In this document: positions 12,688-36,283 of the stretch, one piece after another
Layout of the letters: the number at the start of each line of letters is the position of its first letter
Numbering within the stretch: the stretch's first letter is position 1
NCBI GenBank assembly: GCA_001664505.1
Contig: CP011806.1
Span: 4,904,494-4,968,493, forward strand
Direction: 5' to 3'
DNA: 64,000 bases
DNA from: Acidobacteria bacterium Mor1
GTDB taxonomy: Bacteria > Acidobacteriota > Polarisedimenticolia > Polarisedimenticolales > Polarisedimenticolaceae
Translations under genes and position numbers: made by a program
The notes under the pieces: model-generated
The model's input: the letters and a program-made list of their open reading frames with translations, nothing else
The model's database searches: none
Told to the model about the DNA's origin: nothing

Positions 12688-13086
12688 TCACTCGCCCCGG
12701 GCGAGGTCCACGAGCAGGTCGAGCAGCTTGACCGGATCGCTGGTGGCGTCCTCGCCGAGTTCCGCCGAGGCGATCTCGTCGACCCGCTGGGCGGCATGTG
12801 CGAAACCCATCGACCAGTGGCCGAACAGCCGGGTCTCGGTCTCGGTCTCCGACAGGATCTCCATGTCGGTATGTCGAGGGTCCTGCTCGATGCGCTCGAG
12901 CAGGGGGCGCACGGTCTCCGGCCGGCCTTCGAGCACCTGCAGGAAGCGCTCGTCATCCAGCAGGATGAAGCCCGTGACCGCCCGCCGGCCATTGCGCTCG
13001 GCGGCGTCGGTGACGATCTCCAGTTTCTCGGCGTAGCCGGTGTCTTCCGACGGTTTGCTGCAGTAGAGAACGCGAATCAGGTCCAT
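12688..13086 (-). CDS. Stand-alone BLUF-domain blue-light photoreceptor
   Basis: The 132-residue protein is little more than one BLUF domain, which binds FAD and senses blue light. The residues known to shape the photocycle are present: Tyr8 (VLYCS), Asn32 before AVTG, Gln50 in FLQVLEG, and Trp91 and Met93 in GHWSMGF. No output domain is fused; the C-terminal 35 residues probably form the cap helices, so signalling should go through protein contact. The ATG at 13086 has GAGGAG upstream. A longer frame extending to 13380 is rejected because its N-terminal part is unlike BLUF proteins. The gene is divergent from the secreted protein at 13240 with a 153-base gap. Confidence 0.93.
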   Translation of the reverse strand: MDLIRVLYCSKPSEDTGYAEKLEIVTDAAERNGRRAVTGFILLDDERFLQVLEGRPETVRPLLERIEQDPRHTDMEILSETETETRLFGHWSMGFAHAAQRVDEIASAELGEDATSDPVKLLDLLVDLARGE

Positions 13087-13239
13087 TTTGACTCCTCGCA
13101 GGACGTATCGGCCGATCGCCCCGAACCTTGAAGGCCCCGCGTCGGATTCCCCGCGCCGATCCCCGGACCCGCTGTGCCGGAGGCAAAACCCGTCTAGGAT
13201 GGATGGAAGGCGGGCTTCGACCCTGATCGGAGGTGTTTC

Positions 13240-14094
13240 TTGAGAGCGCGAACGGCTGGTCCCGCTGCCCTGGGCGGTCTGTTGGCCTTGCTGCTCGCGG
13301 CCCCGGCTCTGGCTTCCGCGGCGGCCGTCGCCGAGCGGGTCGACCGGGACGTGGCAGCAGGGAGGCCGGTGGTCGTTCACGCCATCGTCGCGCTCTGCGA
13401 CAACGAGAATCAGGGCATCGTTCCCGTTCCGGAGCAGCTAGGCAACGGCCTCGACCCCGCTTCAAACCTCTACTGGGGAGCGCTCTACGGACTGCGGACC
13501 CACATGAAGAAGGCCGGTTGGACGCGCACCCCGGTCGACCCGCCCGAGGGGGGCGACGTGCTGGAGCGCATCGTGCTCTCGCGCACCCTGACCCGGAAGG
13601 GCAAAGCGGTCGACGTGCATATCGTCGCCGATGCCTGGCGGGGAGACCGGATGGAGCAGGCGCTCGGGGCCTACCTGGCGATCTCGTCCGGCCGGGATTC
13701 CGAGGTGGTACAGCTTCCTCGAGGCGAACAGCGGCTGGACCTCCACGCGGGCGGGGACGCGCACCTGCTGGTCTGGGTCGGGCACAACGGTTTGATGGAC
13801 CACACGATTCGACGGGTTGCCCGGTATCCGCAGGCGAAACCCCGCGCCGGGATGGTTCTGGCGTGCCTGAGCAAGGAGTACTTCACCGAGCACTTCCGCG
13901 ACGTCGGGGTTCATCCGGTGTTGCTGACCACCGGCCTGATGGCGCCCGAGGCCTACACCCTCGACGCTGCGATTCGCGGGTGGGTGGAGTCGGGAGATAC
14001 AGAGCGGGTTCTCGATCAGGCGGGAGCGGCCTATCACGCGTACCAGAAGTGCGGAGAGCGAGCGGCTCGCCGGCTGTTCTGGGGCGTACCCTAG
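13240..14094 (+). CDS. Secreted protein of unknown function
   Basis: The likely start is TTG at 13240, six bases after GGAGGTG. It yields 284 residues with a signal peptide (RTAGPAALGGLLALLLAAPA). The mature part contains VVVHAIVALCDNENQGIVPV, LYWGALYGLRTHMKK and DHTIRRVARYPQAKP. I recall similar anonymous proteins with the DN.NQGI and NLYWGALYG motifs in other bacteria, but no function. Cys residues in ALCDN, LACLS and QKCGE may matter. The position before the selenoprotein candidate suggests, without proving, a shared transcript. Confidence 0.75.
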   Translation: MRARTAGPAALGGLLALLLAAPALASAAAVAERVDRDVAAGRPVVVHAIVALCDNENQGIVPVPEQLGNGLDPASNLYWGALYGLRTHMKKAGWTRTPVDPPEGGDVLERIVLSRTLTRKGKAVDVHIVADAWRGDRMEQALGAYLAISSGRDSEVVQLPRGEQRLDLHAGGDAHLLVWVGHNGLMDHTIRRVARYPQAKPRAGMVLACLSKEYFTEHFRDVGVHPVLLTTGLMAPEAYTLDAAIRGWVESGDTERVLDQAGAAYHAYQKCGERAARRLFWGVP

Positions 14095-14203
14095 CAGAGG
14101 CCACAGGAATCCGGCAGGCTTCAGGCTTGTCTTCGGCGGCCGCTCACCGGTAAGTTCAAGGGGCATGGCCGTGGGTTGCCGTGGCCCTTCTCGGTGTCGG
14201 TCG

Positions 14204-14617
14204 ATGACGGTTCCGTTTCACAACCTTACCGGTGGCTCGGAGGCGGAAATCGCCTCGCTGCGGGATAGCGTCCTACGCTGCCGGGATCTCGCCGAGGTGA
14301 TGGCCTGGGCCGGCGAACGGCCGGGCTATCGAGGCCGGGAGACCTTCGTGAACCAGGACGAATTCACCCACGACGGGGTCTTTCCCGTCGAGGGGGGACG
14401 GTACGTCGTGTTCGGGCTAACCTGACTGGGCGCGGTGACGGCGGTCGCCGTCTGGGATCGTCAGCCGTCCGCTGCGGAACTGCTGGATCATCGCCTCGAG
14501 CATGGCTGGCAACCCACGCCGTCGAACCTGGTGGACGGTGCCCGGGTGCTCGGCTACGCGCGCTGCATCGCCGAGGGGGACTCGGCGGCTGAACCGGAGA
14601 GTGAATCAGATGCGTGA
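14204..14617 (+). CDS. Candidate selenoprotein: small protein with in-frame TGA (possible Sec)
   Basis: One reading frame of 138 codons is interrupted only by TGA at 14423-14425. The part before it (73 codons) contains FHNLTGGSEAEI, FVNQDEFTHD and ends EGGRYVVFGLT; the part after it continues in the same frame with LGAVTAVAVWDRQPSAAELL and LVDGARVLGYARC. Both halves look like coherent protein, and the residue before TGA is Thr in a small, probably conserved strand. A hairpin with a GGTC loop follows the TGA at the distance used by bacterial SECIS elements. Alternatives are a nonsense mutation or two separate small genes, the second starting at GTG 14435. A start at 14165 would add 13 unnatural-looking residues. 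Function unknown. Confidence 0.55.
14422..14464 (+). promoter_or_regulatory. SECIS-like hairpin after the in-frame TGA
   Basis: GACGGC (14437-14442) pairs perfectly with GCCGTC (14447-14452) around the tetraloop GGTC (14443-14446). A base helix CTGAC (14422-14426), which contains the TGA, pairs with GTCAG (14460-14464). The loop begins 17 bases after the TGA. In the E. coli fdhF element the apical loop is also GGUC and begins about 18 bases after UGA. The bulged U seen in the E. coli upper stem is not evident here. Confidence 0.45.
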
Positions 14618-15374
14618 ATCTTCCGGAGTGCCCTTCGTGAGCAGCCACCCCGCCGGCCGCCGGCTCTACCGTGTCGCTGCCTGGGGGTTGGCGGCCTGTT
14701 TCGCGACCTCGAGCCTGGCCGCGAACCTCCAGGTGTTCGGTTCCCTGCGCGGCATGTTCCATCAGGATGCCGTCGGCCCCCAGGTGGTTCTGTCCGAGCA
14801 TCTGCCCGACAGCCGGCTGTTCGGCGTGGGCGCCCTTTCCGGGCTACGGGGTGAGATCACCATCGTCGGCGGCAGGCTTCATCTTGCCCACGCCGACGGG
14901 GAGTCGGTGCGCCACGCGGTGGTCAGCCGCAGTGACGAGTCGGCGGCATTGCTGGTGATGTCCGCCGTGGAGCGTTGGGTTCCGGTCACCATCGACGCCG
15001 CGATTCCCTTTGAGAAGCTCGATGCGGAGATCGAACGCCTGGCCCGGGAGGCGGGCATCGAGGCCGCGGCCTTCGTGGTCTACGCCGAGGGGGACCTGGA
15101 GAACCTCGACTGGCACGTGATCGACGGGGCGAAGCTGGAAGGTGGCGGTGGCTCCCACGAGGACCACATGAGGGCCGCCATCCGCCGGAAGGCCCGCAGG
15201 ACCCGGGGCAAGTTGGTCGGTTTCTTCTCGAAGAAACACCAGGGAGTGTTCACCCACAGGGGAGCGAACACCCATTTTCACGTGGTGGTCGACGAACCGC
15301 TGACCAGCGGCCACGTCGACGGGGTGACGATTCCCGCCGGGACGACCCTGCGCTTCAGCGCCGACGGAACGTAG
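14610..15374 (+). CDS. Secreted acetolactate-decarboxylase-like protein
   Basis: The ATG at 14610, behind a GGAGAG, overlaps the upstream gene by 8 bases. A twin-Arg-poor signal peptide (VAAWGLAACFATSSLAA) is followed by LQVFGSLRGMFHQD, then FGVGALSGLRGEITIVGGRL, which matches the acetolactate decarboxylase (BudA/AlsD) fold. The zinc-ligand region is retained as THFHVVVDEPLTSGHVDG, with two His spaced as HxH and a third in GHV. BudA enzymes are normally cytoplasmic and make acetoin; an exported form with a basic insert (RRKARRTRGKLVGFFSKKH) suggests a different substrate. Length is 254 residues, normal for the family. Confidence 0.75.
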   Translation: MRESSGVPFVSSHPAGRRLYRVAAWGLAACFATSSLAANLQVFGSLRGMFHQDAVGPQVVLSEHLPDSRLFGVGALSGLRGEITIVGGRLHLAHADGESVRHAVVSRSDESAALLVMSAVERWVPVTIDAAIPFEKLDAEIERLAREAGIEAAAFVVYAEGDLENLDWHVIDGAKLEGGGGSHEDHMRAAIRRKARRTRGKLVGFFSKKHQGVFTHRGANTHFHVVVDEPLTSGHVDGVTIPAGTTLRFSADGT

Positions 15375-34336: not shown

Positions 34337-36283
34337 GTGAGAAAGCTGATTCATGGCGCATGTTTCGTGTTGCTCTGCCTGGCCGGTGTGCCGGGCATCT
34401 CGGCCCAGACCCAGATCGATTGGACCGGAGTCGCGGGGAACGGCAGCTACTCCGGGACCACCGCCGGCGTCGGTTGGAGCCTGACGGTCTCGAGCGCCGA
34501 CTCGGTCCAGGCGGACAGCGCCGATCCAAGGCTGCTACGCGGCCGGGTCGGCAACCCAAACGGCTCGGCGATCTACGAGATCGAGTTCGACCGGCCGGTT
34601 CACGTGGTGTTCTGGAATGACGCCTCCGGGACCGTCGGGGGGCTCGCCGGGCTCTCGGGCAGCCAGGAGCAAGTCGATCTGGTCGCCGCCAGCGGCGACT
34701 ACAGCTACGTCGACAACTCGATCAACATCGCGGCGCCGCCCAACGCGGCGGCCAAGCCGGTCTTCGGTCAGACCGGTTCGGACCTGACGGCGAGCGCGGT
34801 GGCGGGCGTCGACCACGCCTACTACCTGGCGCGTTCGATCGGCGCCAAGACCCGCCTGACCTGGCGCCATTCCAATGTCACCCCGAAACTGGAAGCCTGG
34901 CGCGTGGCGATCGCGCCGACCATCGACTGGACCGGTGTGGTCGCCAACGGGACATACACCGGAACCGTCGACGGCGTCGGCTGGACCCTGACGGTTTCCG
35001 GCGCCGACTCGGTGCAGGCGGACAGCGCCGACCCGACCATGCTGCGCGGCGTCGTCGGAGACACCAGCCAGACCGCGACCTACGAACTGGTGTTCGATCA
35101 TCCGGTCAGCATCGTCTGGGCCAACGCGACCAACGCCACCGTCGGAGGCCTGGCGGGTATCGGCACCAGCGACGAACAGGTCGAGATCGTCGGAGGGTCC
35201 GGCAGCTACACCCTGGGGAGCAACGCGCCCAACGTGGCCGCTGCGCCCAACGCTACGTTGCCGCCGGTGTTGTCGAATCCGGGAAACAATTTGAGGGCAT
35301 CCAGCGCTCCGGGGCAGGATCACGCCTACTACAAGGCGCAGTCGATCACGCCCCAGGTGGCCCTGCGCTGGACCCACAGCAACACCGTGCGCAAGGCGGA
35401 GCTGTGGCGCATGTGCATTTCAGCCTGCCGCCGGATCGAATGGGGCAACATCGCAGGGGACGGCGCCTACAACGGGACCCAGGACAACTTCTCGTGGACC
35501 CTAAACATCCAGAACGCCGATTCGGCCTCGGTCAGCCCGAGCGAGCCGGCGGTACTGCGTGGCCGCATCGGCGACCCGAACCCCAGCGCGACCTACAACA
35601 TGACGATCAGTCCCGCCGCCGATCTGGTCTGGTACAACGTCCACAGCGGGACCCTGGGCGGCCTCGCCGGTGCCGGGATCAGCAACGAGGGTGTCTCGCT
35701 CACCGGCGGCGCACCGAACTACTCGCTTCTCGACAACGCCTCGAACATCGTCAACCCGCCGGCCAGTGCGGCGTCGCCGCTCCTGAGCCAGATCGGAAAC
35801 AACCTGCACGCCGACGCCAGCCCCAACGTCGATCACGCCTACTACCTGGCGCGGTCGACCTCTCCGCAGACCTCGCTGGACTGGGTGCACACCAACAACA
35901 CGGCGAAGCTCGAAGGGTGGAGCGTATGTCCCTCCTGCCCGGCGCGGAGCGGCACGCCGTCGCTCTTCGTCGACCGGGTCGATGGTGAGGTCCTGGTGCG
36001 CTGGCTGCCGGTAGCGGGCGCCTCCTCCTACGACCTGGTCTACGGCTCGCTGACCGAACTGCGGGGCAGCGGCGGAGATTTCGAGCTGGCGACCCTGGAC
36101 TGCGTCGCCGAGAAGACCCAGCTCGAGAGCCCCGTCACCCTCAAGCCGCCGCCGGGAGAGACCTACTGGTACCTGGCCCGAGCGGTGTTCTGTCAGGGGG
36201 TCGGGACCTTCGATTCCACCGGCTTCCGCCAGCAGGGGCCGCGTGATCCGGGGATCGGCTTCTCGGGGAACGACTGTCCGTAG
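34337..36283 (+). CDS. Secreted triple-repeat protein with Fn3-like C-terminal module
   Basis: A signal peptide (KLIHGACFVLLCLAGVPG) leads into three tandem domains of about 165-170 residues, each opening with ID/EW-G and containing LLRG.VG, GGLAG and DHAYY.A.S. A C-terminal Fn3-like region with four Cys follows (SYDLVYGSL to GNDCP). I do not know a named family for the repeats. GTG at 34337 is preferred because GGGAGG ends at 34330, which gives no spacing for the ATG at 34331 but 6 bases for the GTG. Expression probably depends on sigma-54 and the activator encoded divergently. The product should be at or beyond the outer membrane. Confidence 0.88.
   Translation: MRKLIHGACFVLLCLAGVPGISAQTQIDWTGVAGNGSYSGTTAGVGWSLTVSSADSVQADSADPRLLRGRVGNPNGSAIYEIEFDRPVHVVFWNDASGTVGGLAGLSGSQEQVDLVAASGDYSYVDNSINIAAPPNAAAKPVFGQTGSDLTASAVAGVDHAYYLARSIGAKTRLTWRHSNVTPKLEAWRVAIAPTIDWTGVVANGTYTGTVDGVGWTLTVSGADSVQADSADPTMLRGVVGDTSQTATYELVFDHPVSIVWANATNATVGGLAGIGTSDEQVEIVGGSGSYTLGSNAPNVAAAPNATLPPVLSNPGNNLRASSAPGQDHAYYKAQSITPQVALRWTHSNTVRKAELWRMCISACRRIEWGNIAGDGAYNGTQDNFSWTLNIQNADSASVSPSEPAVLRGRIGDPNPSATYNMTISPAADLVWYNVHSGTLGGLAGAGISNEGVSLTGGAPNYSLLDNASNIVNPPASAASPLLSQIGNNLHADASPNVDHAYYLARSTSPQTSLDWVHTNNTAKLEGWSVCPSCPARSGTPSLFVDRVDGEVLVRWLPVAGASSYDLVYGSLTELRGSGGDFELATLDCVAEKTQLESPVTLKPPPGETYWYLARAVFCQGVGTFDSTGFRQQGPRDPGIGFSGNDCP
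34415..35929 (+). repeat. Three tandem coding repeats of about 500 bp
   Basis: Repeat units begin near 34415, 34922 and 35435 and encode about 169, 171 and 165 residues. Units 1 and 2 are the closest (DSVQADSADP is shared exactly); unit 3 is more divergent and carries an insertion with CISACRR before it. Confidence 0.85.

Follow-up and report, generated by a model that had tools for sequence, protein, structure and literature searches.

The UGA codon at positions 14423-14425 of the window, which is the whole stretch of 64,000 nucleotides analysed here from Acidobacteria bacterium Mor1, is in all probability read as selenocysteine (Sec). The decoding is classical, and the protein family to which the product belongs is undescribed. 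The assignment rests on the UGA itself, the coding sequence on both sides of it, a covarying SECIS hairpin, the Sec machinery of the genome and the exchange of Sec with cysteine. The preliminary description of this DNA had proposed a selenoprotein with Sec at this codon, and the proposal is supported by the homologues, the SECIS covariation and the Sec machinery. The features of the locus are as follows.

14204..14617, plus strand: selenoprotein coding sequence, 137 residues including Sec74, terminal TGA at 14615-14617 (start placed by the alignment of member N-termini)
14423..14425, plus strand: in-frame TGA, probable Sec74 codon (TGA in 43 of 44 aligned homologues and TGT in one; Sec machinery in the genome)
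14437..14452, plus strand: bacterial SECIS hairpin (covariation, synonymous-codon test and the model rules of PMC13188914)
14564..14566, plus strand: Cys121 codon, a possible Sec partner (conservation by alignment)
14422..14464, plus strand: "base helix" of CTGAC (14422-14426) and GTCAG (14460-14464), present here, unconserved and probably due to chance
14610..15374, plus strand: downstream alpha-acetolactate-decarboxylase-like gene (PF03306, E 3e-10); from its ATG on, 8 nt are shared with the end of the selenoprotein gene

A conserved coding frame on both sides of the TGA

The frame 14204-14617 reads MTVPFHNL...YVVFGLT-TGA-LGAVTAVAVWDRQPS...VLGYARC...SDA-stop and contains one internal in-frame TGA; the frame and the flanking peptides YVVFGLT and LGAVTAVAVWDRQPS were re-read as originally described. 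The ATG at 14204 is favoured over that at 14165 because several members begin at the corresponding place.

In the phylum of the organism, a protein search gives true matches in 12 further genomes, so that the gene is found in 13 of 396 genomes overall. The 12 further genomes carry TGA at the same codon in 11 cases and TGT in one (genome G064, locus L018), which reads YLVYETT-C-LGTVTAIAIWDHRPTADELL and is the sole orthologous Cys form found. The gene is also present, with TGA, in a public metagenome-assembled genome titled Polyangia bacterium, and a profile search of the phylum of that genome, which we take to be Myxococcota, matched 32 of 379 genomes, every one with TGA. Two other matches of the homology search are spurious: L002 (Neomegalonema) is a 22-residue match within another protein, and G061/L024 is a frame without the pattern of the family. 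No relative was found in the plasmids and viral contigs searched. In the genome with the Cys form, selA and selB lie above the cut-offs and the tRNA-Sec matches are weak (51 bits, at contig ends); perhaps this lineage is losing the use of Sec, or the assembly is incomplete.

An alignment of 44 alignable members from the two bacterial phyla (A3) shows just two codons at the Sec column, TGA in 43 members and TGT in one, and the homologues carry conserved sequence beyond the first stop rather than ending there; the opposite of either result was named in the preliminary description as a refutation. At least 42 genes in other bacteria share the UGA, the protein on either side and the RNA hairpin. 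Among the 43 TGA members, an in-frame stop within 43 codons after the TGA occurs in none, against 35 and 21 of the 43 in the other two frames. The mismatch rates at the first, second and third codon positions are 0.35, 0.33 and 0.61 after the TGA and 0.32, 0.36 and 0.57 before it; on both sides, the rate at third positions is thus nearly double that at first and second positions. The invariant residues D52, E53, T73, Sec74, P88, L94, R97, G101, W102 and G117 also lie on either side. The YLVFDTT...LGAVTAV pattern mentioned in the preliminary description does exist: it is seen as YLVFDTT-TGA-LGGLMAV in L001 and as YDTT-TGA-LGAVTAV in several members.

A plain listing of open reading frames closes the first frame at 14425, as would be expected of a pseudogene or of two separate short frames with a true stop at 14423. 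The comparison already refutes this explanation, to which we assign practically no weight, in that the TGA occupies the same codon in 43 members of two phyla, both sides are constrained, and no in-frame TAA or TAG stands in its place.

A covarying hairpin downstream of the TGA

The segments GACGGC (14437-14442), GGTC (14443-14446) and GCCGTC (14447-14452) form a perfect 6-bp stem whose loop begins 17 nt after the TGA, and the sequence, loop and spacing are exactly those first described. The published rules for bacterial SECIS elements call for a loop of 3-9 nt whose first two bases are G, a stem of 4-16 bp, a distance of 16-37 nt from the UGA to the loop and an energy of -7.5 kcal/mol or lower (PMC13188914). 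The hairpin satisfies them with a 4-nt GGUC loop, 6 bp, 17 nt and -10.8 kcal/mol. Taken alone, the window sequence is weak evidence, the fold of this GC-rich segment being not above chance (z = 0.06 against dinucleotide shuffles), and it is only through comparison with homologues that the hairpin exceeds chance by far.

Covariation was scored in a gap-free alignment of the 43 TGA members, with registers slid by 1-3 positions for comparison. In the 6-bp stem, 89.3% of cells pair, and the covariation score is 0.344, compared with 0.119 +/- 0.020 in shuffles (0/500). Cells changed on both sides number 28, compared with 8.7 +/- 1.9 in shuffles (0/500), far above the slid registers. The outermost pair, columns 15 and 30, joins two third codon positions and switches jointly between G-C and C-G (Fisher p 4e-9), with G-C in 23 members, C-G in 13 and U-G in four. 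Column 15 changes approximately 14 times on the tree, and nearly always four of four independent pairs on supported branches agree; because the supported pairs are so few, the tree-aware sign test for these columns is unable to reach 0.05.

Individual members illustrate the constraint. L050 leaves the protein sequence TAVAV unchanged and writes it as CACCGC-GGTC-GCGGTG, and in L043, L048 and L047 both encoded residues are altered (M..I, K..F and A..A, respectively) with the stem pairs kept. Nearly all members have GGTC as the loop and three have AGTT, the first and last bases of the loop changing together. When codons are recoded at random among synonyms, the observed stability reaches p<0.05 in 23 of the 43 TGA members (mean z -1.6). 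The Cys member has no such hairpin (synonymous-codon z +0.14), and the hairpin is weak or differently formed in L022 and L036. A search of Rfam gave no match above its cut-offs. The constraint on the hairpin is strong enough that encoded amino acids change pairwise, which makes this a clear example of a protein sequence shaped by RNA structure.

The base helix CTGAC/GTCAG, which had been proposed to enclose the TGA, did not hold up: its five pairs form in 18, 31, 26, 15 and 4 of 42 distinct sequences, and its occurrence in the window sequence is probably a matter of chance.

Selenocysteine machinery and its co-occurrence with the gene

All four genes for which a check of the genome had been suggested are found above curated cut-offs: selA (C1:1427034-1428410, 516 bits), selB (C1:1342028-1343863, 330 bits), tRNA-Sec, selC (C1:1275848-1275941, 72.7 bits) and selD (TIGR00476, L102; C1:2910488-2911429, minus strand). 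In selD, an in-frame TGA falls within SCAG-U-ASKMG, at the site where SelD is known to carry Sec, which indicates that SelD is itself a selenoprotein here and that Sec is used in the organism. The gene under study likewise has an in-frame TGA; the family and function of SelD are known, however, and the two proteins have no sequence relation.

Nearly all of the 30 genomes tested in the phylum of the organism have the Sec machinery, with or without the gene, and co-occurrence is therefore informative in the second phylum only. There the Sec trait is patchy: selA lies above the cut-off in 30 of the 32 genomes with the TGA gene and in 14 of 26 with neither that gene nor a distant Cys family described below. 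Among genomes with the Cys family, selA is found in 2 of 22 (one of the 22, G371, being from the phylum of the organism), and the difference between TGA-gene and Cys-family genomes is significant (Fisher p 1.5e-10).

Programmed read-through independent of Sec, in which a near-cognate tRNA suppresses the UGA in a favourable context (UGA CU) to give a short and a long product, would likewise produce conserved downstream coding, and CT does follow the TGA in 35 of the 43 TGA members. However, the bases after the UGA vary (AAC or AAT in seven members and TTA in one), Cys is the only replacement at the UGA position, and the TGA gene tracks selA. Read-through also leaves unexplained a covarying hairpin with the loop and spacing of a bacterial SECIS, and we regard it as extremely improbable.

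With Sec insertion, SelB carrying Sec-tRNA would bind the hairpin at 14437-14452, the ribosome would decode the UGA as Sec, and the product would be a protein of 137 residues with Sec at position 74.

A distant family with cysteine

Seven weak, stop-free matches (L058-L064) belong to a separate family that is itself undescribed (alignment A2, which also holds L116). This family has the motif TNCNGGVKEV within the pattern QGEFHHDVV...TNCNGGVKEV...DARSEL...RQ.GGGW and contains no Sec. Profile-profile comparison of alignments A1 and A2 (probability 96, E 5e-9, residues 23-98) aligns Sec74 to an invariant Cys of A2, and E, D, G, P and R positions are in common. The families differ in that A2 has Cys and another C-terminal half, with conserved DARSEL..E.R.RQ.GGGW, and occurs mostly in genomes that lack selA; it is found in 22 to 23 of the 379 genomes of the second phylum. 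No genome of that phylum was seen with both families, an observation that alone is not significant (P 0.14). The A2 match in G565 flagged as containing one TGA is a normal Cys gene. Three A2 members were scanned, with no Pfam or NCBIfam model found.

Predicted structure and gene neighbourhood

Searches of the selenoprotein family against Pfam, NCBIfam, PHROGs and the PDB gave no match above chance. In NCBIfam, the window protein has no model, and scans of 14 members gave none above chance; a Pfam match to SOK/DIX (E 0.008) is below the cut-off, occurs in one member only and was rejected. Two AlphaFold2 models were obtained, the better of which is predicted with confidence (pLDDT 93, pTM 0.85) and has the order beta-alpha-alpha-beta4-alpha-beta2. 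Sec74, modelled as Cys, is predicted to lie in a turn between strands 66-73 and 77-84. Foldseek with the predicted models gave no match under E 0.07 in the PDB, and a structure search of the viral library gave none. The best VIA-align match is OsmE (Z 6.3) for the first model and one with Z 4.8 for the second; no solved structure stands out, and these matches are not counted as relatives. No thioredoxin-like chain is among the matches listed, for which the best Z is 4.8 (pLDDT 93 model).

The selenoprotein gene lies in a neighbourhood that is not conserved beyond close relatives: across 38 loci, no recurring neighbour of any kind was seen, metal resistance genes included. Just upstream in the window is the gene for an exported-looking protein of 284 residues without a Pfam match (13240-14094, plus strand), and a short blue-light sensor protein of the BLUF type is encoded at 12688-13107 on the minus strand (PF04940, E 6e-26). 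A single tRNA gene, tRNA-Gln(ctg), was found in the window, at 35725-35799 on the minus strand.

The overlap with the acetolactate-decarboxylase-like gene had been taken as a hint of a shared task. The 8-nt overlap, with probable translational coupling, is what would be expected if the two proteins acted in a common pathway, but the overlap is found only in this genome among the loci read, and no homologue of the neighbour stands within the few kilobases read beside the family gene at the 37 other loci. Additionally, the neighbour looks exported by its N-terminus and the selenoprotein does not. A common pathway is thus very unlikely.

Proposed function and relation to known selenoproteins

The nature of Sec, together with residues E53, D57 and R97 that are common to the Cys family, suggests a small redox enzyme whose attacking nucleophile is Sec, placed in the inter-strand turn; we give this function roughly even chances. 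Glu53, Asp57 and Arg97 would be the candidates to polarise Sec, and the selenenyl intermediate may be resolved by an outside thiol or, in members that have it, by the Cys close to the C-terminus. Cys121 is present in 13 of the 14 members of the first alignment and in less than 90% of the 44-member set. The likeliest form of such an enzyme is a thiol-dependent peroxidase or reductase.

The main rival is a selenoprotein in which Sec is a ligand of a metal, metalloid or electrophile, as in a sensor or sequestering protein, and not a redox catalyst. Neither UxxC nor CxxU, the motifs of thioredoxin-fold redox selenoproteins, was seen in the family (the window protein reads GLTULGAV, and four members have CTU), and the C-terminal Cys is not universal, both of which suit a ligand; metal-binding roles are noted for several selenoproteins (PMC13188914). 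The lack of any recurring neighbour, metal resistance included, speaks against it, however, and the invariant acidic and Arg residues common to the Cys family are no less compatible with an active site, so that we consider a ligand role unlikely, though deserving of some weight.

The decoding resembles that of genes of the E. coli fdhF type, with an in-frame UGA, a short stem, a GGUC loop 17 nt downstream and SelA, SelB, tRNA-Sec and SelD, whereas neither the formate dehydrogenase models nor those of the other named selenoprotein families match the protein. A 2026 review counts 119 prokaryotic selenoprotein families (PMC13188914), including the new deep-Sep families (PMC12013277). The gene is of the same kind as these and recognised in the same way, but model searches, as far as they reach, place the family outside the 119, and none of the deep-Sep names (PMC12013277) suggests it. 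A text search for the family motif found nothing in the papers within its scope, which extended to neither subscription papers nor preprints. More tentatively than the redox function itself, the family may constitute a new selenoenzyme class of environmental bacteria from at least two phyla, nearly Sec-obligate (43/44), with a small alpha/beta fold that no solved structure clearly resembles, an active site made up of Sec74, Glu53 and Arg97, and an undescribed chemistry.

For the bacterial selenoproteome, the result adds a whole family whose genes are truncated at the UGA by standard ORF calling. Members of this family retain Sec with hardly an exception, and genomes that lack the Sec machinery tend toward the distant Cys family, which provides a natural experiment on the use of selenium.
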